64,000 nt of DNA from Antrihabitans stalagmiti (lineage in GTDB: Bacteria; Actinomycetota; Actinomycetes; Mycobacteriales; Mycobacteriaceae): positions 248,001 through 312,000 of the forward strand of contig NZ_JAEMNV010000004.1 in the NCBI RefSeq assembly GCF_016482825.1, read 5' to 3'. The notes beneath the pieces were generated by a model, which was given only the letters and a program-made list of their open reading frames with translations, ran no database searches and was not told where the DNA came from. The translations under genes were made by a program, and so were the position numbers. This document shows, piece after piece, positions 109 to 36,019 of the stretch (position 1 is the stretch's first letter; each line of letters opens with the position of its first letter).

Positions 109-720
109 ATGACCAGTTCAACCGGACTTCGAGACCGTAAGAAGGCTGCGACCCGAGCAGCACTCAGCGCGGCCGCGGTTCGACTCTCCCGTCTGCACGG
201 TCTCGACGCTGTGACCGCAGAAGCCATCGCCGCCGAAGCCGATGTCTCCACCCGTACCTTCCACAACTACTTCCCTTCGAAAGAGGACGCAATCCTCTAT
301 CAAGCGGAGTCCTCGGTTCAGGAGTGGGTCAACGACCTTCGCGCGCGCCCTGCACACGAGCCGATCTGGGATTCCCTCGAAGCTTTGGCCATCGCCTACG
401 TCAGCGACGACAGCCGCGATCTCGAAGATTTGAGCGTCGTTTCTCGGCTGGTCGAGCAGTCACCTGCATTGATGGCCAGGACGGTGCAAATGCACAACAC
501 GGTGTCGCGGCTGTTCGGCGAAGCCATTGCCGACCGCACAGGCACCGACATCGACTCAGATCTTTATCCGAACCTGCTGCAGGTTGCAGTCGGGGGAGCG
601 ATGAAGACCGTGATCGAACTCTCCATAAGTGAAAACGCCGGCGGCCGGACGCCCGAGCAACTGGTGTCCGAAGCATTCGCGCTCCTTCGCGCAGGGCTAC
701 CGCAGCCCACTCACAACTGA
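109..720 (+). CDS. TetR-family transcriptional regulator
   Basis: A 203-residue protein of normal TetR length. The N-terminal helix-turn-helix domain spans roughly residues 10-60, with the typical core around TAEAIAAEADVSTRTFHNYF followed by PSKEDAI. The C-terminal ligand/dimer domain is not diagnostic. The gene lies 28 bases ahead of an MMPL exporter on the same strand, and two inverted repeats lie directly upstream, so it probably represses itself and the exporter until an unknown ligand releases it. The family call is firm; the ligand cannot be told from sequence. Confidence 0.9.
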   Translation: MTSSTGLRDRKKAATRAALSAAAVRLSRLHGLDAVTAEAIAAEADVSTRTFHNYFPSKEDAILYQAESSVQEWVNDLRARPAHEPIWDSLEALAIAYVSDDSRDLEDLSVVSRLVEQSPALMARTVQMHNTVSRLFGEAIADRTGTDIDSDLYPNLLQVAVGGAMKTVIELSISENAGGRTPEQLVSEAFALLRAGLPQPTHN

Positions 721-747
721 CGACCGACAACTTTCACGAGGAGAATC

Positions 748-3054
748 GTGGCTACCTATCTGTATCGAATCGGTAAGTTCGCCTACCGAAGAAAAGGCGT
801 AGTGCTCGCCGCCTGGCTGGTACTTCTTGTACTTGCCGGTGTCGGCGCGGCCACGCTGTCCGGGCCGACGAGCGAATCGTTCTCGATCCCGGGTACCGAG
901 GCGCAAAAGGCTCAGGACCTGATGGCCGAGCGCTTCCCTGATCGCGCCGAAGATCCGATGAACTCGCTCAGCGCGCGGTACGTGATCCAGGCTCCCGCCG
1001 GGCAGACGCTCGAGTCGCCGCAGAATCAAGCGGCGATGGACGCGATGATCGCCAAGGTCCGCGAGATTCCGGACATCAAGGGTGGTGCCGAGCAGGTATC
1101 CAATCCCGTTGTTGCCGAGCAGAACATGACCCAGATTGCGCTCGATCAAGCTGCCAAGGACGGGTCGTCGCCGGATCAGGCGCTCGCCAACGCCAAGGCA
1201 GTGTCGTCGCTGAGTCCCGACAAGACCGTCGGCTACTTCGAAGTTCCGTTCAACGGTGGCATGAGTGACGTCACGCCGGAACTGCGCCAAGAGATCGGTG
1301 ACGCGGCCCAGATCGGCCGCGATGCAGGCCTCACCGTCGAGGTCAGTGGCAATGCGGCCACCGAGCAGACGATGCCGGGTGGAGCCGCCGAACTGGTCGG
1401 CATCGGCGTCGCAGCAGTAGTTTTGATGATCACCTTCGGTTCGCTCGTCGCAGCTGGTCTGCCTCTGATTACCGCGATCATCGGTATCGCCATCGGCAGC
1501 CTGGGCATCACCATCGCGACGGGGTTCATGGATCTCAGCTCGATGACGCCCACATTGGCGATCATGATCGGTCTCGCTGTCGCGATCGACTATTCGTTGT
1601 TCATCGTCAGCCGCTACAGGCATGAGCTGGAGGAAACCGAAGACCGCGCGGAAGCCGCAGGTAAAGCGGTCGGCACCGCCGGGTCGGCAGTGGTGTTCGC
1701 CGGCTTGACCGTCATCATCGCGTTGGTCGCTCTCCGCGTCGTCGGGATTCCGTTCCTGTCGGACATGGGTGCAGCTGCGGCATTCACCGTGCTGATTGCT
1801 GTACTGATCGCACTGACGTTGCTGCCGGCCCTGCTTGGACTGTTCGGCCGCAAGGCGATCGCCGGTGGGATTCCGTTCCTGAAGTCGCGTGTCGGCGAAG
1901 GCGATCCTGCGAAGCCGAACAGGGCTGTCCGCTACGCACGATTCGTGACGAAGGCTCCGGCGCTGACGTTGGGTGCAGGCATTCTGTTGCTCGGCTTGCT
2001 CGCGATCCCTGCGACCAACCTCGCGCTGTCGCTGCCGAACGAAGGCACCGCTGATCCGACGACGAGTGCACGCAAGGCCTACGACCTCGTCGGCGAAAGT
2101 TTCGGACCGGGCAAGAACGGTCCGCTGCTGGTGGTCGTCGACGCCAAGGACGCGCGAGTCCCAGCAACCGACGCCTTCGCCGATGTCGTCCGGACCATCG
2201 AGGCGCAGTCGGATGTGTCGAACGCGCAGATCGTCGGCGTCAACCAGGCCGGTGACACAGCGCAGATTCTCGTCACCCCCGAAAGTTCACCGAGCAGCGA
2301 CGCGACGAAGGATCTCGTCCAGAATCTTCGTGACGCGGAATCGGAACTGCAGTCGAGCACGGGTGCCAGCTACGGCATCACGGGTCAGACCGCGTTGGAG
2401 AACGACATCTCGGACCGACTGCAGAGCGCGCTCATCCCGTATCTGGCAGTGGTCGTCGGCCTCGCGTTCGTGCTGCTGATGCTGGTCTTCCGGTCGATCC
2501 TCGTACCGCTGACCGCCACGCTGGGCTTCCTACTGAGCGTTGCCGCGACCTTCGGTGCGACGGTCGCGATCTTCCAGGAAGGCTGGCTCGGGCTCATCTC
2601 GAATCCGCAGCCGATCGTCAGCTTCATGCCCGTCTTCCTCATCGGCGTGGTGTTCGGTCTGGCGATGGACTACCAGGTGTTCCTGGTCAGCCGGATGCGT
2701 GAGGAGTACATGAAGGGTGCGAGCGCCAAGGAGGCTGTGGTCGCCGGGTTCAATCACGGTGCCCGCGTTGTCACCGCTGCGGCGATCATCATGATGTCGG
2801 TTTTCGCGGCCTTCATGGCAGAACCCGATTCGTTCATCAAGGCAATGGGCTTCGCGCTTGCCGCGGCTGTTTTCTTCGACGCCTTCATCGTCCGGATGGT
2901 TATCATTCCGTCGGTCATGGCACTGCTCGGAGATGCTGCCTGGTGGCTGCCCAAGTGGCTCGATCGAATTCTGCCGAACGTCGATATCGAGGGGCAGAAG
3001 CTCCAGCTCGCTACCACTGACGAACTGCGGAAGGATCTGCAGCCAGTCAGCTGA
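748..3054 (+). CDS. MMPL-family RND exporter
   Basis: A 768-residue inner-membrane protein with the MMPL/RND layout: an N-terminal membrane segment (about residues 15-37), a large extracytoplasmic domain, a block of membrane helices (about 205-370), a second extracytoplasmic domain and a second helix block (about 555-745). The two conserved intramembrane motifs GLAVAIDYSLFIVSRYR and GLAMDYQVFLVSRMREEY are present, one per half, as expected for proton-driven transport. The start is GTG, preceded by GAGGAG. It follows the TetR gene by 28 bases and is probably one unit with it. MMPL proteins export lipids or hydrophobic toxic compounds; the substrate is unknown. Confidence 0.92.
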   Translation: MATYLYRIGKFAYRRKGVVLAAWLVLLVLAGVGAATLSGPTSESFSIPGTEAQKAQDLMAERFPDRAEDPMNSLSARYVIQAPAGQTLESPQNQAAMDAMIAKVREIPDIKGGAEQVSNPVVAEQNMTQIALDQAAKDGSSPDQALANAKAVSSLSPDKTVGYFEVPFNGGMSDVTPELRQEIGDAAQIGRDAGLTVEVSGNAATEQTMPGGAAELVGIGVAAVVLMITFGSLVAAGLPLITAIIGIAIGSLGITIATGFMDLSSMTPTLAIMIGLAVAIDYSLFIVSRYRHELEETEDRAEAAGKAVGTAGSAVVFAGLTVIIALVALRVVGIPFLSDMGAAAAFTVLIAVLIALTLLPALLGLFGRKAIAGGIPFLKSRVGEGDPAKPNRAVRYARFVTKAPALTLGAGILLLGLLAIPATNLALSLPNEGTADPTTSARKAYDLVGESFGPGKNGPLLVVVDAKDARVPATDAFADVVRTIEAQSDVSNAQIVGVNQAGDTAQILVTPESSPSSDATKDLVQNLRDAESELQSSTGASYGITGQTALENDISDRLQSALIPYLAVVVGLAFVLLMLVFRSILVPLTATLGFLLSVAATFGATVAIFQEGWLGLISNPQPIVSFMPVFLIGVVFGLAMDYQVFLVSRMREEYMKGASAKEAVVAGFNHGARVVTAAAIIMMSVFAAFMAEPDSFIKAMGFALAAAVFFDAFIVRMVIIPSVMALLGDAAWWLPKWLDRILPNVDIEGQKLQLATTDELRKDLQPVS

Positions 3055-3491: not shown

Positions 3492-6400
3492 ATGGCTTCA
3501 AGTCGCAGAACGCGTCGTGGTGTCGGCGCTGTTTCGATTGCGACCGGTCTGATCTTGGGTGGCTACACCGCCCTCGCAGGTTCGGTTGCTTCAGCAGCGC
3601 CCTTCACGTCCACGGTGACCGGTGGATCGACGGGCACCGTCACGCCTATTTTTACGACGGGAACGATCACCGGCTCGTCCACCGGAAGTTCCACTGTCGG
3701 CAGCGCAACAGGCGCGAGCACCACGGGCAGCACCCTCGGCTCGGCAACGGGCGGAGCCACCGGCATCACCACAGGATCCGTCACCGGTGTCTCTTCCGGG
3801 AGCGTGACCGGCGCAACCACAGGTTTGACGACTGGCGCGACGACCGGATCGGTGACATCGTCCACCACCGGTGCGGCGACCGGACTCACGACAGGCGACA
3901 CAACGGGTGTGACGACCGGCGCGGTTACGGGCACGACGACCGGCGCGGTGACGGGTGCGACGACTGGCGCGGTCACGGGTACGACTACGGGTACGACAAC
4001 TGGCGCGACTACGGGGCTTCCGACGGGAGATACGACCGGTCTGCCGACCGGGACCGTGACAGGAACGACAACAGGCGCGGTCACGGGGCTTACAACAGGT
4101 GACACAACGGGTCTGACGACTGGCTCGGTTACGGGGACGACGACGGGTGTGACATCCGGTGCAGTGACGGGTGCAACCACAGGCGTGACGACGGGGTCGG
4201 TAACTGGGGCGACGACGGGAGTTACGTCCGGAACGATCACCGGGACGACAACGGGAGTCACCACCGAGGCTGCCACAGGTCTTTCTACGGGCTCGGTGAC
4301 ATCGTCGACCTCCGGCGGCTGGATCACGTCAGGCTTCACGACAGGCGCAGCAACGGGTAGTGCGACCGGAACTACTACCGGCATAACTACGGGTGCCGTG
4401 ACCGGCACGACGACTGGTTCGACCACTGGCGTGACTACTGCGGGTGCCACAGGAATTACGACGGGTGCGACGACAGGTGCCACCACGGCAGGCGCGACGG
4501 GCATTACAACGGGTGCGGCCACAGGCATCACCACAGGCAGCGTCACTGGAATTACCACGGGTGCAGCGAGTGGTTCTGCGACTGGCATTTCGACGGGTTC
4601 AACGTTGAGCGCAGCCACCGGCGTCACGAGCGGGTTCACATCCGGAAGCGTCACGGGCATTCCGACGACAGGCACGACAGGCTTCACAACTGGAACAGTC
4701 ACCGGAATCAGCACCGGCGGGACGACGGGTTCGACCTCCAGCACCTCCATGAGCGCAGCGACGGGCGTGACGTCTGGCTTCACGACGGGTATCCCGACCA
4801 CGGGTACAGCCACCGCTAGCGGTTCCGCGACGGGCATCACGTCGGCGACAAGCTCGGTCACAGGCATCACCTCCGGCACTGTCGCCAGTTCGGTCACCGG
4901 AATCACCACCGGCACGGGGATCACGACCGGCACGATTACCGGCACAGGAATTACGTCGGCGACAGGCTCAGCGGCCGGCATCACTACCGGCGCCGTCACA
5001 GGCATTCCGACTGCTACTGGGATTACTACCGGGACGATCACCGGCATTCCGACAGTGACGGGTGCGGTGACCGGTGGTCCGACGGTGACGGGCGCGGTAA
5101 CCGGGATTACTGCCGGCACGATCACGGGTGTTCCAACTGTGACAGGTATACCGACCACAGGTTCGGTCACCGGAACGGTGACGGGAATTCCGACCTCGGG
5201 CGCCGTGACCGGTGTTCCGACGGTGACGGGTATCCCGACCTCGGGCACGGTGACGGGAACGGTGACCGGTGTTCCGACCACTGGTTCGGTGACTGGTATC
5301 ACGACGGGCACGATTACCGGCATTCCGACTGTGACCGGTGTTCCGACGGTGACTGGCATTCCGACCACGGGAACGGTGGCCGGCACGGTGACTGGTGTTC
5401 CGACGGTGACCGGTATTCCGACCACGGGAACGGTGGCCGGCACGGTGACTGGTGTTCCGACGGTGACTGGTATTCCAACGACTGGTTCGGTGACTGGTAT
5501 TACGACGGGCACGATCACCGGCATTCCGACTGTGACCGGTGTTCCGACGGTGACTGGCATTCCGACCACGGGAACGGTGGCCGGCACGGTGACTGGTGTT
5601 CCGACGGTGACCGGTATTCCGACCACGGGAACGGTGGCCGGCACGGTGACTGGTATTCCGACGGTGACTGGTATTCCAACGACTGGTTCGGTGACTGGTA
5701 TTACGACGGGCACGATCACCGGCATTCCGACTGTGACCGGTGTTCCGACGGTGACTGGCATTCCGACCACGGGAACGGTGGCCGGCACGGTGACTGGTAT
5801 TCCGACGGTGACGGGTATCCCGACCACGGGTATTCCGACGGTCACTGGCACGGTGACGGGCATTCCGACAGTGACCGGTGTCCCGACCACGGGTATTCCG
5901 ACGGTCACTGGCACGGTGACCGGTATTCCGACGGTGACGGGTATCCCGACCACTGGTGTTCCGACAGTGACGGGCACGGTGACCGGTATTCCGACGACCG
6001 GTATCCCGACGGTGACCGGAACGGTGACGGGTATTCCGACGGTGACGGGTATTCCGACCACGGGTATTCCGACCGTGACGGGCACGGTGACGGGCATCCC
6101 GACAGTGACCGGTATTCCGACGACTGGTATTCCGACCGTGACTGGCACGGTGACCGGTATTCCGACGGTGACGGGTATCCCGACCACGGGTATTCCGACA
6201 GTGACGGGCACGGTGACCGGTATTCCGACGACCGGTATTCCGACGACCGGTATTCCGACGGTGACTGGCACGGTGACCGGTATTCCGACGGTGACGGGTA
6301 TCCCGACCACTGGTGTTCCGACCGTGACTGGCACGGTGACGGGTATTCCGACGGTGACGGGCATTCCGACGACCGGTATTCCGACGGTCACTGGCACGGT

Positions 6401-8126
6401 GACGGGTATTCCGACGGTGACGGGTATTCCGACCACGGGTATCCCGACCACGGGTATTCCGACGGTCACGGGAACGGTGACGGGTATCCCGACGGTGACG
6501 GGCATCCCGACAGTGACCGGTATTCCGACGGTGACGGGCATCCCGACGACCGGTATCCCGACCGTGACTGGCACGGTGACCGGTATTCCGACGGTGACGG
6601 GCATCCCGACGACCGGTATCCCGACGGTCACTGGCACGGTGACGGGTATCCCGACGGTGACGGGCATCCCGACCACGGGTATCCCGACGGTCACTGGCAC
6701 GGTGACGGGTATCCCGACGGTCACGGGCATCCCGACAGTCACGGGAACGGTGACGGGCATCCCGACGGTGACGGGCATCCCGACCACGGGCATTCCGACA
6801 GTGACCGGCACGGTGACCGGTATTCCGACGGTGACGGGTATCCCGACGGTGACGGGCATTCCGACGACTGGCATTCCGACCGTGACTGGCACGGTGACCG
6901 GTATTCCGACAGTGACGGGTATCCCGACGGTGACGGGCATTCCGACGACTGGCATTCCGACCGTGACTGGCACGGTGACCGGTATCCCGACGGTGACGGG
7001 TATCCCGACAGTGACCGGTATCCCGACAGTGACGGGTATCCCGACCACGGGTATTCCGACGGTGACCGGCACGGTGACGGGTATCCCGACGGTGACCGGT
7101 ATTCCGACCACGGGTATCCCGACGGTCACTGGCACGGTGACGGGTATCCCGACGGTCACGGGCATCCCGACAGTCACGGGAACGGTGACCGGTATTCCGA
7201 CAGTGACGGGTATTCCGACAGTGACCGGTATTCCGACAGTGACCGGCACGGTGACCGGTATTCCGACGGTGACGGGTATCCCGACAGTGACCGGTATTCC
7301 GACAGTGACGGGTATCCCGACCACGGGTATTCCGACGGTGACCGGCACGGTGACGGGTATCCCGACGGTGACCGGTATTCCGACCACGGGTATTCCGACG
7401 GTGACGGGAACGGTGACGGGTATTCCGACCACGGGCATTCCGACAGTCACGGGAACGGTGACCGGTATTCCGACAGTGACGGGTATCCCGACCACGGGTA
7501 TTCCGACGGTCACTGGCACGGTGACCGGTATCCCGACAGTGACGGGTATCCCGACCACGGGAATTCCGACAGTGACCGGCATCCCGACGACCGGTCTGCC
7601 TACAACGGGTCTGCCGACAACCGGCTTCCCGACGACAGGGTTCCCGACGACGGGCACGCCGACTGGCGTGGCTACCGGACCGACAACCGGCCTCCCAACG
7701 ACTGGTCTTCCAACAACCGGCTTCCCGACAACCGGCTTCCCGACGACCGGCACGCCGACTGGCGTGGCGACCGGGCCGACGACCGGTCTACCGACGACGG
7801 GTCTGCCGACAACAGGTGGGCCGACCGGTCTGGCTACCGGACCGACAACGGGCTTCCCGACCGGCCCGACGGGTGTGACGGTTGGCGGTCCTACCGGGAC
7901 GACGTTGGTGAGTGCTCCGACAGGCGGCGCGACGAGCTTCGGCCAGTCGACCGGTGTTCCGGAATTGGCTGGTCGAGTTCAGGCGGGCCCGGAGAACTTC
8001 GCCGGCTTCTTGCCGACGACGGGCGCGAAACTTGTTTCGCTGATGGTGATTTCCGGTTTGGCGATTGTCTTCGGAAGTCTGTTCATGGTGGTTGGACGAC
8101 GCAAGTCGCAGGGTAAGCGGGTCTGA
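3492..8126 (+). CDS. Giant secreted Thr-Gly repeat protein with LPTTG wall-sorting signal
   Basis: A 1544-residue secreted protein. It opens with a positively charged signal peptide (MASSRRTRRG, hydrophobic core, cleavage near ASA-AP at about residue 35). The N-terminal third is a tetrapeptide repeat TGxx (TGAV, TGTT, TGLP, TGDT). The middle, about 850 residues, mixes TGIPTV, TGIPT and TGTV units. The C-terminal part has LPTTG/FPTTG repeats, a short non-repeat stretch, then LPTTG (residues 1507-1511), a hydrophobic helix and the tail RRKSQGKRV: a textbook sortase substrate. A sortase gene lies 1.9 kb downstream in the same operon. The Thr density suggests O-glycosylation and a stalk- or adhesin-like role; both are inference. 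No enzymatic domain is visible. The start rests on the ribosome site and signal peptide. Confidence 0.88.
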   Translation: MASSRRTRRGVGAVSIATGLILGGYTALAGSVASAAPFTSTVTGGSTGTVTPIFTTGTITGSSTGSSTVGSATGASTTGSTLGSATGGATGITTGSVTGVSSGSVTGATTGLTTGATTGSVTSSTTGAATGLTTGDTTGVTTGAVTGTTTGAVTGATTGAVTGTTTGTTTGATTGLPTGDTTGLPTGTVTGTTTGAVTGLTTGDTTGLTTGSVTGTTTGVTSGAVTGATTGVTTGSVTGATTGVTSGTITGTTTGVTTEAATGLSTGSVTSSTSGGWITSGFTTGAATGSATGTTTGITTGAVTGTTTGSTTGVTTAGATGITTGATTGATTAGATGITTGAATGITTGSVTGITTGAASGSATGISTGSTLSAATGVTSGFTSGSVTGIPTTGTTGFTTGTVTGISTGGTTGSTSSTSMSAATGVTSGFTTGIPTTGTATASGSATGITSATSSVTGITSGTVASSVTGITTGTGITTGTITGTGITSATGSAAGITTGAVTGIPTATGITTGTITGIPTVTGAVTGGPTVTGAVTGITAGTITGVPTVTGIPTTGSVTGTVTGIPTSGAVTGVPTVTGIPTSGTVTGTVTGVPTTGSVTGITTGTITGIPTVTGVPTVTGIPTTGTVAGTVTGVPTVTGIPTTGTVAGTVTGVPTVTGIPTTGSVTGITTGTITGIPTVTGVPTVTGIPTTGTVAGTVTGVPTVTGIPTTGTVAGTVTGIPTVTGIPTTGSVTGITTGTITGIPTVTGVPTVTGIPTTGTVAGTVTGIPTVTGIPTTGIPTVTGTVTGIPTVTGVPTTGIPTVTGTVTGIPTVTGIPTTGVPTVTGTVTGIPTTGIPTVTGTVTGIPTVTGIPTTGIPTVTGTVTGIPTVTGIPTTGIPTVTGTVTGIPTVTGIPTTGIPTVTGTVTGIPTTGIPTTGIPTVTGTVTGIPTVTGIPTTGVPTVTGTVTGIPTVTGIPTTGIPTVTGTVTGIPTVTGIPTTGIPTTGIPTVTGTVTGIPTVTGIPTVTGIPTVTGIPTTGIPTVTGTVTGIPTVTGIPTTGIPTVTGTVTGIPTVTGIPTTGIPTVTGTVTGIPTVTGIPTVTGTVTGIPTVTGIPTTGIPTVTGTVTGIPTVTGIPTVTGIPTTGIPTVTGTVTGIPTVTGIPTVTGIPTTGIPTVTGTVTGIPTVTGIPTVTGIPTVTGIPTTGIPTVTGTVTGIPTVTGIPTTGIPTVTGTVTGIPTVTGIPTVTGTVTGIPTVTGIPTVTGIPTVTGTVTGIPTVTGIPTVTGIPTVTGIPTTGIPTVTGTVTGIPTVTGIPTTGIPTVTGTVTGIPTTGIPTVTGTVTGIPTVTGIPTTGIPTVTGTVTGIPTVTGIPTTGIPTVTGIPTTGLPTTGLPTTGFPTTGFPTTGTPTGVATGPTTGLPTTGLPTTGFPTTGFPTTGTPTGVATGPTTGLPTTGLPTTGGPTGLATGPTTGFPTGPTGVTVGGPTGTTLVSAPTGGATSFGQSTGVPELAGRVQAGPENFAGFLPTTGAKLVSLMVISGLAIVFGSLFMVVGRRKSQGKRV
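3600..7590 (+). repeat. Coding tandem-repeat array (12/15/18-nt units)
   Basis: About 4 kb of in-frame tandem repeats. 3600-5040 is built mainly of 12-nt units (Thr-Gly-x-x). 5040-7590 mixes 18-, 15- and 12-nt units (TGIPTV, TGIPT, TGTV) with larger blocks duplicated almost exactly, for example the copies starting near 5340, 5530 and 5730. Synonymous third positions vary between neighbouring units, so the array is old or selected at protein level, while the larger near-identical blocks point to recent recombination. Repeat number is likely to vary between strains and to be error-prone in short-read assemblies. Confidence 0.9.
7596..7817 (+). repeat. 96-nt repeats carrying six internal LPTTG motifs
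   Basis: A 96-nt unit starts at 7596, 7692 and 7788 (the third copy is truncated). Each opens with two consecutive LPTTG pentapeptides, at 7596-7610, 7611-7625, 7692-7706, 7707-7721, 7788-7802 and 7803-7817, and the first two copies continue with two FPTTG. These are the same five residues as the true sorting signal at 8010-8024 but are not followed by a membrane segment. Confidence 0.9.
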
Positions 8127-8129
8127 AAC

Positions 8130-8717
8130 GTGGCTGAAAAGAAGAACATGCGGACGAATCTTGCGACTTTGCAGGAGCGGCTGGAGCGCACCGTTTTCGG
8201 TGAGGCATTGATCAGTGCGATGGTGGTGACGGCAATACTCGTCGCAGTCGTGTGGTCGATGCCCGAGTCCACGATCCGTAGGGCTGTGCTTCCGCCGTTG
8301 GCGCCTATCGCGATAGGTGTTGGGCTGGATCAGAATTGGCGCGTGTTCGCGCCGGATCCGCCGCGTCGTCTGGACACGATCGAGGTCCACGTCTTTATGC
8401 CTGACGGCTCGGATCGGGTGTGGACGTTGCCACACGGCGATCCGATCATCGGGCAGTATTCGTGGTATCGCTGGCAGAAGTTGAAGGAGAACCTGCTGAC
8501 GAACCTCCAGGTCACCGATCAGGCTGTGCAACTGTTGAATCCGGAGTTGTGGACCAATTTCGTGCACTGGGTTGCGAAGGAGATGGCTGGCTCTGAACAG
8601 CCGGCGCGTGCGCAGGTTCTGTTGCAGATGGAAGCTCTGATTCCGCCGGGGTCGACCGCGCCCCCGCAGATAGCTCAGCGCATCGTTTACGACGAGTTCT
8701 TCGAGGTCAAGCCATGA
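8130..8717 (+). CDS. DUF5819-like single-pass membrane protein
   Basis: A 195-residue protein with one membrane helix near residues 25-45 and an outward-facing rest. The segment around residues 65-75, DQNWRVFAPDPPR, followed by a short beta-rich region, resembles the QNWxxFAPxP signature of the DUF5819 family, which I associate with HTTM membrane proteins. The GTG start lies three bases after the repeat-protein stop, and the end overlaps the HTTM start as ATGA, so the three genes should be translationally coupled. It is probably a small partner subunit of the HTTM protein; the molecular role is unknown. Confidence 0.65.
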   Translation: MAEKKNMRTNLATLQERLERTVFGEALISAMVVTAILVAVVWSMPESTIRRAVLPPLAPIAIGVGLDQNWRVFAPDPPRRLDTIEVHVFMPDGSDRVWTLPHGDPIIGQYSWYRWQKLKENLLTNLQVTDQAVQLLNPELWTNFVHWVAKEMAGSEQPARAQVLLQMEALIPPGSTAPPQIAQRIVYDEFFEVKP

Positions 8718-9964
8718 CGACAACGACCAAATCCCGGTTCTCCTGGGTGTCCGCGGGCGTCGAGGCATGGCGGAAGTTCTGGTTCGAGCCGCAGTCGGCG
8801 GCGACGCTCGGCTTCATCCGCATCGCGTACGGCGTGCTGGCGATCGTGTGGACCGTGTCCCTGCTGCCGGACCTGCACGACCTGTTCGGCGAATCGGGTG
8901 TGCAGCCAAAGGCAGCTCCCGGCGACTATCAGTGGAGCGTTCTCAACATCTGGTCGGGCGACATCGCTGTATGGGCCGTCTGGGGAACCTTGATGGTCGG
9001 ATCGATTGCGCTGACCCTCGGTTGGCACAGTCGGCTCGCGGCTCTGCTCGTGTTCGTCTGCATGGTTTCTTTCCAACGTCGCGACATCTACGTCTTCAAC
9101 TCCGGCGATGTCCTCGTTCGGATGGAAGCGCTGATGCTGGCACTCGCTCCGTGTGGTGCGGCATTGTCCTTGGATCGACGCCGAACCGCCGGTTCGTTCT
9201 GGTCGGCACAGTTGCGGGCGCCGTGGGTAATTCGTCTGATGCAGGTGCAGTTGTCGTTGATCTACTTGGTCACCGTGCACGGCAAGGTTGCAGGAACGAC
9301 GTGGAACGACGGCACTGCTGTCGCGTACGCGCTGCAGTTGCGAGATTTGCAGAATTTCGCTGCGCCGGAATGGCTTTGGACGAGTCCGTTCTTCATGAAC
9401 GTCGCAACCTGGGGCACGTTGCTGGTCGAGTTGGCATTGGGTGTGTTCGTTTGGAACAAGCGTTTGCGCCCGTATGTGCTGATCGCGGGCGTCGTCATGC
9501 ACCTGATGATCTTGACCAGTCTCGCTGTCGCCTTCTTCAGCTTTGCGATGTTCATTCTGTATCTGTCGTTCGTGTCGCCGGAGACGGCTATGCGTTGGGC
9601 CGAGAATTTGAGCGGCCGCGCGTTGCGTGACCGGAGCCGTAAGGTCGTCGGCGTTCTTGGACGAGAAGGTAAGGCCGCCGCAGCCGAACCTGTCGCCGCC
9701 GTGGAACCGAGGAGTGCCGACGCCACACAATCAGCTGACGACGCCGACGAGCCTGCGCGGAGTCGGCATCGTCGTGAACTAGCCGAGGCGGAATCGTCAC
9801 GGCTGCAGGAGAAGTCGTCACGGCGGTCACGTCGCCGGGCAAAGGCGGCCGATCCCGAGCCTGTGGATTACTACGCCGACGCACCCGAGGCATTTACGCC
9901 ACCGGAAGCGATCGAGCCGAATCCGCCCGGTCAGCGGCGTTTCGACGCCTTCTCGAGGGACTGA
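8714..9964 (+). CDS. HTTM-domain (vitamin-K-carboxylase-like) membrane protein
   Basis: A 416-residue polytopic protein. Membrane helices fall at about 28-50, 78-100, 108-128, 140-160, 175-198 and in the 225-285 region. Sequence features of the HTTM family are visible: an early GFIRIAYGVLAIVW helix, the RRDIYVFNSGD loop, and VHGKVAGTTWNDGTAVAYAL before the last helices. HTTM is the membrane core shared with gamma-glutamyl carboxylases, but no carboxylase function is shown here. Residues from about 300 form a charged Arg/Glu/Ala-rich tail with low complexity, probably cytoplasmic and disordered. It overlaps the preceding gene by four bases and is followed by a sortase, suggesting a job at the membrane in making or modifying the repeat protein. 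Confidence 0.8.
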   Translation: MTTTTKSRFSWVSAGVEAWRKFWFEPQSAATLGFIRIAYGVLAIVWTVSLLPDLHDLFGESGVQPKAAPGDYQWSVLNIWSGDIAVWAVWGTLMVGSIALTLGWHSRLAALLVFVCMVSFQRRDIYVFNSGDVLVRMEALMLALAPCGAALSLDRRRTAGSFWSAQLRAPWVIRLMQVQLSLIYLVTVHGKVAGTTWNDGTAVAYALQLRDLQNFAAPEWLWTSPFFMNVATWGTLLVELALGVFVWNKRLRPYVLIAGVVMHLMILTSLAVAFFSFAMFILYLSFVSPETAMRWAENLSGRALRDRSRKVVGVLGREGKAAAAEPVAAVEPRSADATQSADDADEPARSRHRRELAEAESSRLQEKSSRRSRRRAKAADPEPVDYYADAPEAFTPPEAIEPNPPGQRRFDAFSRD

Positions 9965-9983
9965 TTCGATTACCGAGTCGTAC

Positions 9984-10739
9984 GTGCAGCCGCGATCGTC
10001 GCGGGAGCGCTGGTCTGACCACGGTCGTCTGCTGGCTCGGGGTCTAGGTCAGACTCTGCTCACGGTCGGCGTCGTTGTCCTGCTGTTCGCGGTGTATCAG
10101 GTCTGGTTCACCGGTGTGATGAACAGCTATCGGCAGTCGCAGTTGACGAACGCTCTGACCGAGCAGTGGGACCGTGGCGCCGATCCTCTCGCGGCGGATT
10201 CGGGTTCGCTTCCGACCCCGCCCATCGGGTCCGGGGTTGCGTTGATTCGGATCCCCGCGCTGGGCAGTGACTACGTGAAAGTGATCGTCGAAGGTACGAC
10301 GCAGGACGCTTTGACCGATGGGCCTGGGCATTACGTAGGTAGTGCTCGTCCAGGTGAGGTCGGGAACTTCGCCGTTGCCGGGCATCGGGGCGGGTACGGC
10401 TCGCCGTTCGACGATCTGGACAAACTTGTCGCAGGCGACGCGATCGTGATCGAGACGCGCTCCGACTACTTCGTCTACCGGGTCCTCGGTGATCGAGCTA
10501 CCGGCGATCCAACGGTTCGCGATCAGGAGGGCCTGCCAGGTAGGGAGGTTGTCGATGCATCGCGGATCGATGTCGTCCTCCCTGTGCCATCGCGTCCGGG
10601 CGAGCTGCCGACGAGGCGACTGCTCACTTTGACCACGTGCCAGGAAAGATACTTCACCCTCGATCGAATGATCATTCATGCTGAAATGGTCGGTGATCCG
10701 CGACCGAAGGCGAATGGATTGCCGGAAGAGTTGAGGTGA
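9984..10739 (+). CDS. Class E sortase
   Basis: A 251-residue membrane-anchored transpeptidase. One membrane helix lies near residues 18-38, followed by the sortase beta-barrel. Catalytic residues are readable: His134 in VAGHRGGYGSPF, Cys219 in TLTTC and Arg228 in LDRM. Class E enzymes of actinobacteria usually prefer LAxTG, whereas the substrate in this operon ends in LPTTG. It would cut between Thr and Gly of the repeat protein and attach it to the cell wall. The GTG start lies 20 bases after the HTTM gene; the exact start is uncertain, but the membrane anchor is within the called frame. Confidence 0.9.
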   Translation: MQPRSSRERWSDHGRLLARGLGQTLLTVGVVVLLFAVYQVWFTGVMNSYRQSQLTNALTEQWDRGADPLAADSGSLPTPPIGSGVALIRIPALGSDYVKVIVEGTTQDALTDGPGHYVGSARPGEVGNFAVAGHRGGYGSPFDDLDKLVAGDAIVIETRSDYFVYRVLGDRATGDPTVRDQEGLPGREVVDASRIDVVLPVPSRPGELPTRRLLTLTTCQERYFTLDRMIIHAEMVGDPRPKANGLPEELR

Positions 10740-10746
10740 TCGAATA

Positions 10747-10905
10747 ATGTACGGTTGGATTTGGCGAAAGTTGCCCGGAGGAACGTTCGCAAAACTGGTC
10801 GGTTGTCTGGTTTTGTTTGCGCTGACGGTAGCGGTACTGTTCTTGCTCGTATTTCCCGCAGTCGAACCGTTGCTGCCGTTCGATAATATAACTGTCAACA
10901 ATTGA
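10747..10905 (+). CDS. 52-residue membrane protein conserved next to class E sortases
   Basis: The short frame begins MYGWIWRKLPGG, continues with one hydrophobic helix (about residues 17-37) and ends EPLLPFDN followed by a few polar residues. The ATG lies seven bases after the sortase stop. Small proteins with the pattern MYGWIWR(K/H)LPG...hydrophobic...P(F)N are familiar beside class E sortases in mycobacteria and relatives, so this is a real gene rather than chance. Function is unknown; a sortase accessory or assembly factor is a guess. Confidence 0.8.
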   Translation: MYGWIWRKLPGGTFAKLVGCLVLFALTVAVLFLLVFPAVEPLLPFDNITVNN

Positions 10906-10928: not shown

Positions 10929-11534
10929 TCAGGCGAAGAATCCGCCCATCGTCGGCGTCAGCGCGCACGTTATTCCGTTGACGTATGACAATGAACCGTA
11001 CAGCGTCCCGACGATTCGTCCGGTACCCGATTTGACGGTCTTCGACAATTGCGGCACATCGCCGATCACGTCGTCGAGCGTTTCCAGTCCGCCGATGTTG
11101 GTGTCGACGTTGAGCCACGCGAACTTGAGGTCCGAGTGTGCGGGCAGCACAGGGATGGTTGGTGCGGCGTAGACCTTGACTTCGCCCACCGGAACTTCGG
11201 GCACGGCCGTCGGTCCGGGGTGAACCCATGCCCGCGTCATTGCGACGGGGGTGATTCCACCGCCGCAGCCGCCACCGAATGTAGGCGCTGCCTGCGGAAA
11301 TGGCTGCGGGACATTGGTTGCCGGCGAAAACGATCCCGTGCTCGGACCTGCGAAATGCAGTAGGTCCTCGGCAATGGCAACCGCTTCCGGCGAATCGGCA
11401 GCTGCGATTGCCATGAGGTCGCCCGACGTCGGAGCGGCGGGTTCGGCAGAAGCGGCCCCCGAGGTGGCGAAGGTCAACGCCGCGATGGTCGCGACGAGTG
11501 CTGGTCCCCAGCTGCCGATGCGGTGTGTCCTCAT
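10929..11534 (-). CDS. Small secreted protein, paralogue of the one at 36.0-36.5 kb
   Basis: A 201-residue protein starting MRTHRIGSWG, with a clear signal peptide ending near ASA-EP (about residue 30). A strong ribosome site GGAGGAG precedes this ATG, which is why the 28-residue upstream extension is rejected. After a linker with CGGG come two features shared with the secreted protein at 36020-36466: an AP(T/A)(I/V)P(V/F)L segment and LSKTV-SGTGRI near residue 160, followed by a G-I-T-C motif. The two cysteines probably form a disulfide. It converges on the sortase operon and diverges from the NRPS. Function is unknown; I do not recognise a named family. Confidence 0.75.
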   Translation of the reverse strand: MRTHRIGSWGPALVATIAALTFATSGAASAEPAAPTSGDLMAIAAADSPEAVAIAEDLLHFAGPSTGSFSPATNVPQPFPQAAPTFGGGCGGGITPVAMTRAWVHPGPTAVPEVPVGEVKVYAAPTIPVLPAHSDLKFAWLNVDTNIGGLETLDDVIGDVPQLSKTVKSGTGRIVGTLYGSLSYVNGITCALTPTMGGFFA

Positions 11535-35129: not shown

Positions 35130-35705
35130 TCAGCAGATCACAATGATGCCGATGCACGTCTTCAAGACGGCGGGCGGCGGTGGAGTTGCCAGTTCGTCGA
35201 AGCCTGGATCTCCAGGCCCTGCAACGGGTTTGCGCTCGATCTTCACAGCCTGTACCCGCACCGAATCGGTGACGACCAACTCGCCGAGGCTGTTGATACC
35301 CAATGCCTGCGGTGCGACGAGACCTTCGATCGGCACCTCGAACGGCGTCGTCGTACCTGCGGCGAGGCCGAGTACACGGTTGTGTCCGGTGTCGGCAACG
35401 AAGACGTCGCCCGCGCCGTTGGCAGTGACAGCCATCGGTCCTGCGAGCGGGCCGAAGGGCAGCGTCGACGGTCGGGCAGTGGCGGTCATGTGGACCACCT
35501 GATTGGTCGGGGCATCGGCGATGAACATGCCGCCCTGCTGGCTGAAGGCCACGTTCGGGGCCGCATTCATGCTTGTGATCGGCGGTGGCGCGACGGGCAT
35601 CGGCTCGGCCGATGCGCCTGCAGGCGCGAACGTCGCGAGACCCAAGGCGAGGAGAGCGGAGGCGGCCAAAGTTCGCCGACCTGTCGTGAAATCTTGTGTA
35701 CGCAT
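35130..35705 (-). CDS. Secreted NHL/beta-propeller-like protein
   Basis: A 191-residue protein from MRTQDF, with a signal peptide ending around ASA-EP (about residue 33). The mature part has propeller-type repeats: GMFIADAPTNQVVHM, GDVFVADTGHNRVLGL and GELVVTDSVRVQAVK, spaced about 40 residues apart, like the NHL repeats of the PknD sensor domain. Only about three blades are present, too few for a closed propeller, so it may be a fragment or may oligomerise. It ends in an odd C-terminus rich in Ile and Cys. The upstream frame extension to 35831 is rejected because it precedes the signal peptide. Ligand unknown. Confidence 0.7.
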   Translation of the reverse strand: MRTQDFTTGRRTLAASALLALGLATFAPAGASAEPMPVAPPPITSMNAAPNVAFSQQGGMFIADAPTNQVVHMTATARPSTLPFGPLAGPMAVTANGAGDVFVADTGHNRVLGLAAGTTTPFEVPIEGLVAPQALGINSLGELVVTDSVRVQAVKIERKPVAGPGDPGFDELATPPPPAVLKTCIGIIVIC

Positions 35706-36019
35706 CTCTTCTACCCAACGTTGCTCGGCACCGACCACAGGCAACCTAGCACTCGGACGGGGTTGTGGTAACCAGTCCGCACGTGCGCTTGCATGCGTCG
35801 AAATCGGTTCGAGGTGAGGTCTGCCGGGCAAAGAATTGAAATGAATTGCAATTCGCCATTGACTCGGAAAGTGCCGCCGTGGTGAAGTTATTTATGGCGA
35901 CAATTCGAGAGGCCTCGCCTGTCTTCATGTCGAGCGTCATGTCGAGTCCCATGCGCAGTCTTCTGTGCAGTCCTATTCGCACCTGCCGAAAATAACCTCT
36001 CTCCTTCTAGGAGCAAAGA
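35706..36019. promoter_or_regulatory. Divergent intergenic region between two secreted-protein genes
   Basis: 314 AT-richer bases with no convincing gene. A perfect 12-bp palindrome GAATTGCAATTC lies at 35843-35854, and a ribosome site AGGAG (36009-36013) serves the plus-strand gene. No promoter hexamers are assigned with confidence. Confidence 0.35.

Follow-up and report, generated by a model that had tools for sequence, protein, structure and literature searches.

Five co-directional genes occupy positions 3492-10905 (+) of the window, by which we mean the whole 64,000-nt stretch of DNA analyzed here (positions 248001-312000 of its contig, in a genome of 6.39 Mb). Their products, in order, are a repeat protein, a DUF5819-like and an HTTM protein, a class E sortase, and a small membrane protein of 52 aa; the intergenic spacings are 3, -4, 19, and 7 nt. 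An earlier note on this DNA had described five tightly coupled genes with these products, and all of them lie where it had placed them. The features, with the basis of each, are as follows.

3492-8126 (+): secreted Thr-Gly repeat surface protein, 1544 aa, ATG start (translation, count and spacing of TG dipeptides, tandem arrays, protein at the same position in genome G002)
8010-8126 (+): C-terminal sorting signal of that protein, LPTTG (residue 1507), hydrophobic stretch, and basic tail (TIGR01167, 22.3 bits; sequence)
8130-8717 (+): DUF5819-like protein with one N-terminal hydrophobic stretch, a QNWRVFAPDPP motif, and an SdpA-like position (PF19136, sub-threshold for this protein alone; aligned relatives match)
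8714-9964 (+): HTTM membrane protein, SdpB/GGCX superfamily (PF05090, 59.7 bits; 4-nt ATGA overlap with the DUF5819-like gene)
9984-10739 (+): class E sortase with His134, Cys219 (TLTTC), and Arg228 (NF033747, 224 bits; motif positions; whole-genome search)
10747-10905 (+): 52-aa protein with one hydrophobic stretch (MYGWIWRKLPG...; open reading frame, with homologues 3' of a sortase gene in G002, G004, and G034)

The operon looks bounded, since a convergent gene follows it (10929-11534, -; Rv1157c-like below the model cut-off) and 437 nt separate its first gene from the end of an MMPL transporter gene upstream. Positions 109-3054 hold a TetR-family regulator (MftR-like, below cut-off), followed by this MMPL-family transporter. 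Scans of the operon for promoters and terminators returned no signal above chance level. A chance operon is ruled out by the same-genus genome G002, where the whole five-gene order is preserved and the HTTM protein is 53% identical.

The repeat protein consists of 35% Thr and 21% Gly, with 276 TG dipeptides spaced mostly 4 to 6 residues apart in repeats of the TGIPT/PTVTG type, and holds 3 Glu and 3 Asp in 1544 residues. By eye, its N-terminus is an apparent signal peptide. It is the top LPXTG match in the window genome; six others at E ≤0.5 lie below it (≤16.0 bits), and their matching stretches contain no L[PA]xTG motif. It is the only clear LPXTG protein found there with TIGR01167, a model that could miss other signals. 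Further xPTTG units lie inside the repeats, with 36 IPTTG, 7 LPTTG (signal included), and 4 FPTTG in the window protein and 43 FPTTG and 14 LPTTG in that of G002 (locus L019, 11344-16437). Both operons that carry their own sortase gene therefore have xPTTG-rich repeats with exact LPTTG copies, and the sortase may face several candidate sites. Opposite the repeat gene runs a stop-free open reading frame of 1396 aa (3563-7753, -), probably a by-product of the repeats.

Homology of the HTTM protein and its partner

The HTTM protein matches PF05090 at 59.7 bits over 1-257/259, above the gathering score of 27.7, and is the single HTTM protein that this model finds in the window genome. A profile built from 15 HTTM proteins matches human GGCX chains at 4e-14, which bears out the earlier note's description of HTTM as a membrane core shared with gamma-carboxylases. 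These PDB alignments cover the HTTM core only and leave the propeptide-binding part uncovered; a single-sequence PDB search with the window protein gave nothing useful. Against the SdpB model TIGR04033, the window protein scores 39.5 bits (5e-10; 41.3 bits in the genome search), below the cut-off of 178.4. In a tree of 88 HTTM proteins it groups with those of G001 and G002 (100/92), with weak support for a closer pairing with G002 (94/52).

Like GGCX, the HTTM protein has equivalents of several catalytic-core residues. Lys218, which serves in GGCX as the base for deprotonation of vitamin K hydroquinone (passages of PMC12589487), aligns with Lys191, and this position is Lys in 86/88 HTTM proteins and Arg in two (L023 and L029, loci that still have repeat proteins). 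Trp197 (GGCX W223) is kept in 88/88, Tyr184 in 87/88, and both Phe275 (F299) and His263 (H287) in 82/88. Quinol activation may have been kept in HTTM proteins, judging from these residues. In contrast to GGCX, the position of the Glu-binding His160 is Gly in 69/88 proteins and Ser in 16/88 (Gly131 in the window protein), and the quinone-pocket positions F286, F294, and N290 are mostly replaced among the 88. The window system differs further in its near-Glu-free candidate substrate and its separate DUF5819-like partner.

We call this partner DUF5819-like only, since it scores 18.1 bits against PF19136, below the gathering score of 27.1. Ten of 14 aligned proteins, including that of the window, match this model at E ≤1 (best E value, 2.4e-19), and the motif residues Q68 and W70 are conserved in 78/79 and 77/79 proteins, respectively. 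Neither a PDB search with the DUF5819-like profile nor an NCBIfam scan of the proteins gave a useful match. SdpA (PF17418) has no match at E ≤1 among the 14 aligned proteins and none in the window genome at 1e-5, and a profile comparison of DUF5819-like proteins with SdpA gave 54% probability over 54 columns. Both types of protein have a hydrophobic stretch at the N-terminus and a QxWxxFxxxP motif.

Proteins that do match SdpA occur in 12/374 genomes of the class, and an HTTM gene lies in the same ~3-kb locus as the SdpA-matching actinobacterial gene in 14/14 loci (13 distinct regions). A K-W-G motif was found in the HTTM proteins of 12 of these loci; in the other two, the pattern picked an unrelated stretch. 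At the two loci read for gene order (L123 and L124), the SdpA-type gene lies immediately 5' of the HTTM gene. Genes of weak similarity to sdpABC have also been noted in Brevibacterium, an actinobacterium (passages of PMC5719810).

The window operon resembles SdpABC and YitPOM of Bacillus subtilis in that an HTTM-superfamily protein and a small QxWxxFxxxP partner are encoded with a secreted substrate. According to passages of PMC6818787, both SdpA and SdpB are needed for processing of SdpC, and SdpC and YitM carry C-terminal hydrophobic domains. The window system differs in its DUF5819-like partner, whose alignment to SdpA is marginal, in an HTTM protein under the SdpB cut-off, in a neighbor that is a surface protein with a sorting signal and not a short toxin precursor, and in the added sortase.

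Genomic neighborhoods of the HTTM/DUF5819 pair

HTTM relatives were found in 42/396 genomes of the phylum at 1e-10 and in 87/394 genomes of the class at 1e-12 (the two samples overlap), as well as in 14/301 genomes of the window's family at 1e-5; a pattern scan of genome contigs (2 relatives) gave nothing useful. We read 59 regions from the phylum and class lists (20 from 18 of the 42 phylum genomes and 39 new ones from 35 of the 87 class genomes) and 14 around the 14 family matches outside the window genome, all chosen among high-scoring HTTM matches and not at random, so that the surveyed loci are a selected sample, and they are not mutually independent. Genes were called with a custom caller trained on high-GC codons, which trimmed some N-termini. 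Four loci with no HTTM or DUF5819 call (L018, L031, L032, and L083) fall outside the counts, as does L017; among these, L031 and L032 are family regions without an HTTM gene call, and L018 does contain the pair (5790-7309), in Candidatus Obscuribacter, outside the Actinobacteria, with no obvious surface protein adjoining it.

Among the 89 HTTM genes called, a DUF5819-like gene lies directly 5' in 77 and is fused in four (L076, L077, L079, and L080, all of family f18, encoding proteins of 570 to 607 aa), in agreement with the earlier claim that DUF5819 is associated with HTTM. For the remaining eight (L030, L064, L067, L069, L082, L097, L123, and L124), no 5' DUF5819 was recognized; an SdpA-type gene is present at two of them, and two are cut short.

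A protein with a sorting signal stands directly beside 45/77 pairs, in 8/12 families, compared with 2/581 control genes located at least three positions from the pair in these families and 3/652 over all loci. The sorting-signal test combines a pattern with hydropathy, and the count of 45 disregards strand and counts a protein between two pairs for both; requiring a 5' protein on the same strand gives 36/76, a count whose Fisher p presupposes independence of related loci and calls for caution. Positive families are f1, to which the window belongs (4/12), f3 (1/1), f7 (15/15), f8 (4/5), f16 (1/1), f69 (1/1), f93 (18/24), and f114 (1/1), and there are none in f4 (0/13), f17 (0/2), f29 (0/1), and f106 (0/1). 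The unit of surface protein and DUF5819/HTTM pair is wider than the sortase-bearing operon, and its linkage is well supported.

Families f93 and f7 have tandem copies of the pair along with sorting-signal genes that are repeated with it. The genes form alternating triads in L094-L096, L098, and L103, two surface proteins ahead of two pairs in L088-L091 and L093, and a surface protein between two pairs in L074, L106-L108, L110, and L112. Many proteins at these tandem loci (L074, L088-L098, L103, L106-L108, L110, and L112) are rich in Asp and Ala just before an LPDTG, LPSTG, or LPATG motif.

The 32/77 pairs without a sorting-signal neighbor include all 13 of f4, nine of which come after a secreted protein that lacks any anchor motif, either a Gly-rich protein or an Ala-rich peptide of ~110 aa. 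Two of the Gly-rich proteins were scanned and matched an ice-binding-protein model far under its cut-off. At L078 and L118-L121, f4 pairs follow Ala-rich proteins of 79 to 116 aa that end in T-[AV]-F-D-[RK] and are possible peptide precursors. The 5' gene is unlike a surface protein in L065, L070, L106, L108, and L066, the last of which has an LARTG protein on its 3' side.

Pfam searches of ten sorting-signal neighbors gave no common family; four have MG2-type matches (one above cut-off), one has pentapeptide repeats, one is of bactofilin type, and the rest gave nothing notable. Comparison of the partner proteins revealed no obvious common residue pattern that would mark a modified site. Outside the window operon type, neighbors are Asp/Ala-, Ala/Thr-, or Gly-rich, so that the Thr-Gly repeats of the window protein, which the earlier note had made part of the system, are not a general feature of the partner. 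A sortase gene adjoining the pair, the other element of that proposal, is also rare (2/89 HTTM genes, both in full five-gene operons). The search for sortases near HTTM relied on a profile built from two class E sortases, together with a TLTTC-like pattern, and could miss other classes. The earlier note had held that its reading would fall if the pair were found mostly without a sortase or repeat protein. This is the case for an adjacent sortase gene, but not for proteins carrying a sorting signal, to which the pair is tied in the 45/77 cases above.

Sortase, companion protein, and anchors in the window's family

The sortase matches NF033747 at 224 bits (cut-off, 160) and is the only sortase found with PF04203 in the window genome. 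We take His134, Cys219, and Arg228 to be its catalytic triad. Like other class E sortase systems, it combines a TLTTC active site with an LPxTG protein in the operon; the window operon differs in adding the 52-aa companion and the upstream HTTM/DUF5819 pair. The signal typically associated with class E sortases is LAxTG, whereas the window signal is LPTTG.

In G004 and G034, which belong to another genus of the same family, the operon is split. One contig carries a unit of repeat protein (LPRTG), DUF5819, and HTTM; a separate contig carries a class E sortase and a homologue of the 52-aa protein, behind an LPQTG protein of 227 or 242 aa. The window operon can therefore be seen as a surface protein-DUF5819-HTTM unit joined to a class E sortase-small protein unit. 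Homologues of the 52-aa gene follow the sortase in G002 (9e-17) and in G004 and G034 (6e-15), in the latter two at loci without HTTM, and we accordingly rejected this gene as an HTTM partner. The five-gene grouping of the earlier note is thus real in order and coupling, but its fifth gene pairs with the sortase and not with HTTM/DUF5819; the 52-aa protein is a putative companion of the class E sortase. With the sortase so seldom beside the pair, it looks like an add-on in the window lineage. The LPQTG protein, class E sortase, and 50-aa homologue of the fifth gene at L084 (6961-8584) and L085 (7007-8675) adjoin secG/tpiA/pgk/gap-like genes (names given by eye).

Within this family, the pair is kept beside proteins with different anchors. 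An LPxTG repeat protein adjoins it in the window genome (G000), G002, G004, and G034. In G001, of the same genus, the partner has a lipobox-like LLLAGC and ATGG repeats and looks like a lipoprotein. T/G-rich proteins with a C-terminal hydrophobic segment adjoin the pair in G053 (twice), G223, and G231, and a 1415-aa Thr/Ala/Asn-rich protein adjoins a divergent pair in G159. In G146, G196, and G205 (L026-L028), the pair has no candidate substrate alongside. A search of 13 genomes for class E sortases found them in 4/4 genomes of the LPxTG group and in G159, with none in the other eight (including G003, which lacks HTTM). PF04203 searches of nine genomes found one sortase of another kind in G001, missed by the class E search, five sortases each in G004 and G034, and none in G003, G053, G223, and G231. 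Retention of the pair beside LPxTG, lipobox, and C-terminal-hydrophobic proteins suggests that the target of the pair is the exported chain itself, and a role as an anchoring factor is improbable.

Candidate maturation and anchoring of the surface protein

We lean, with moderate confidence, toward a display line dedicated to one surface protein, in which an SdpAB-like pair would mature the exported protein and a dedicated sortase would then anchor it. The Thr-Gly repeat protein would be exported, presumably by Sec, and the HTTM protein and its DUF5819-like partner would jointly mature or modify the exported chain in the membrane, as SdpB and SdpA act on SdpC. The class E sortase, perhaps aided by its 52-aa partner, would then cleave LPTTG and attach the protein to the wall. 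We infer the substrate of the pair, the order of these events, and the chemistry from the gene linkage and the HTTM homology. This reading is based on the enrichment of sorting signals beside the pair (45/77 against 2/581), the tandem repeats in f93 and f7, the four fusions, the G002 operon, the finding of only one sortase, one HTTM protein, and one clear LPXTG protein in the window genome, the constant SdpA-HTTM linkage (14/14 loci), and the homology to GGCX with the equivalents of its catalytic lysine, W223, and F299 kept. Counting against it are the 32/77 pairs with no sorting-signal neighbor, the lone pairs of L026-L028, the 5' genes that do not resemble surface proteins, Arg at the Lys191 position in L023 and L029, the changed F286, F294, and N290, the lack of an obvious common residue pattern among the partners, the selected and non-independent sample of loci, and the rarity of an adjacent sortase (2/89).

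An alternative hypothesis is that the pair cuts, or helps to cut, the exported protein and so releases or trims a peptide, with no new modification. Such proteolytic maturation would follow from the requirement of SdpA and SdpB for SdpC processing and from the C-terminal hydrophobic domains of SdpC and YitM (passages of PMC6818787). It would also fit the 5e-10 match of the window HTTM protein to the SdpB model, the f1 partners that end in a hydrophobic segment without a sorting signal, and the short secreted peptides that precede some f4 pairs. We nevertheless regard it as unlikely, because the SdpB match is far below cut-off (39.5 versus 178.4 bits), the similarity of DUF5819 to SdpA is marginal (54% probability), the C-terminal hydrophobic part of the window protein is a sorting signal, and neither protein of the pair has a protease domain in Pfam or NCBIfam at E ≤1.

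The pair could instead have no catalytic activity and help low-complexity surface proteins as a chaperone or as a scaffold for export, a role that would suit partners of such varied composition, many of them low-complexity exported proteins, as well as the two HTTM proteins with Arg in place of the catalytic Lys. Conservation of Lys191 (86/88), Trp197 (88/88), Tyr184 (87/88), and His263 (82/88) resembles that of an active site, however, and makes this role doubtful. That surface-protein genes have clustered by chance or neutrally around an HTTM/DUF5819 pair serving another purpose would accommodate the 32/77 pairs without a sorting-signal neighbor and the three lone pairs of f1, but it is very improbable given the contrast of 45/77 with 2/581 controls, the spread over 8/12 families, and the joint repetition of pairs and sorting-signal genes. 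GGCX-like gamma-carboxylation of surface-protein glutamate, to which the homology and the catalytic lysine might point, we reject as having next to no likelihood, since the candidate substrate has 3 Glu in 1544 residues, the His160 equivalent is missing (Gly in 69/88, Ser in 16/88), and the PDB matches stop short of the propeptide-binding part.

For maturation ahead of anchoring, the chemistry that we would favor over pure proteolysis or chaperoning is menaquinol activation at Lys191 with a target residue other than Glu. We speculate, quite tentatively and by analogy with GGCX, that HTTM/DUF5819 might be a menaquinol-driven enzyme in which a lysine-activated quinone becomes a strong base and abstracts protons from non-Glu residues of surface proteins (for example, in backbone epimerization or in changes to the Thr or Asp residues of low-complexity repeats), and that this would be a widespread actinobacterial class, coupled here to a dedicated sortase.

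Linaridins offer a further comparison. GrmL presumably belongs with the HTTM proteins. Its gene, grmL, has been reviewed as encoding a potential peptide epimerase (passages of PMC10373908), and crdG encodes an HTTM-domain protein, with an unclear mode of action, in a linaridin cluster that modifies a ribosomal peptide (passages of PMC9927463). These systems share with the window operon an HTTM-domain protein in a peptide-modifying setting and differ in producing a small peptide antibiotic and in having an alpha/beta hydrolase in the cluster, with DUF5819 and sortase unmentioned in those passages. What the Sdp, linaridin, and window systems may have in common is the action of an HTTM protein on an exported or ribosomal peptide. 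Threonine dehydration of the linaridin type was a literature lead only, and we rejected it, as nothing in the searched papers linked linaridin, dehydrobutyrine, and CypL; passages of a review attribute cypemycin dehydration to kinase and lyase enzymes.

The window system would work like SdpAB/HTTM, does not formally qualify as SdpA, SdpB, or GGCX, and adds anchoring by a sortase. A literature search with thin coverage of subscription journals found no paper on DUF5819, none that brings HTTM and sortase together, and none that does so for SdpB and HTTM; two papers mention an HTTM domain. Through the triad, natural partner proteins can be predicted for a branch of the GGCX/SdpB superfamily in bacteria, with a chemistry that we found described nowhere. 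Should the HTTM protein modify its neighbor, mass spectrometry could test for what would be a new class of surface-protein modification; otherwise, the pair may still indicate that actinobacterial proteins anchored by sortases pass through a maturation step. With one candidate substrate, one pair, and one sortase, the window operon makes a compact system for such tests.

Beyond the operon, the window holds a single open reading frame of 7349 aa (11964-34013, +) in which condensation/adenylation-type sequence recurs and whose end is thioesterase-like; by eye it reads as a giant non-ribosomal peptide synthetase. It is flanked by two genes for small secreted-looking proteins, the sub-threshold Rv1157c-like one at 10929-11534 (-) and another at 35130-35738 (-).
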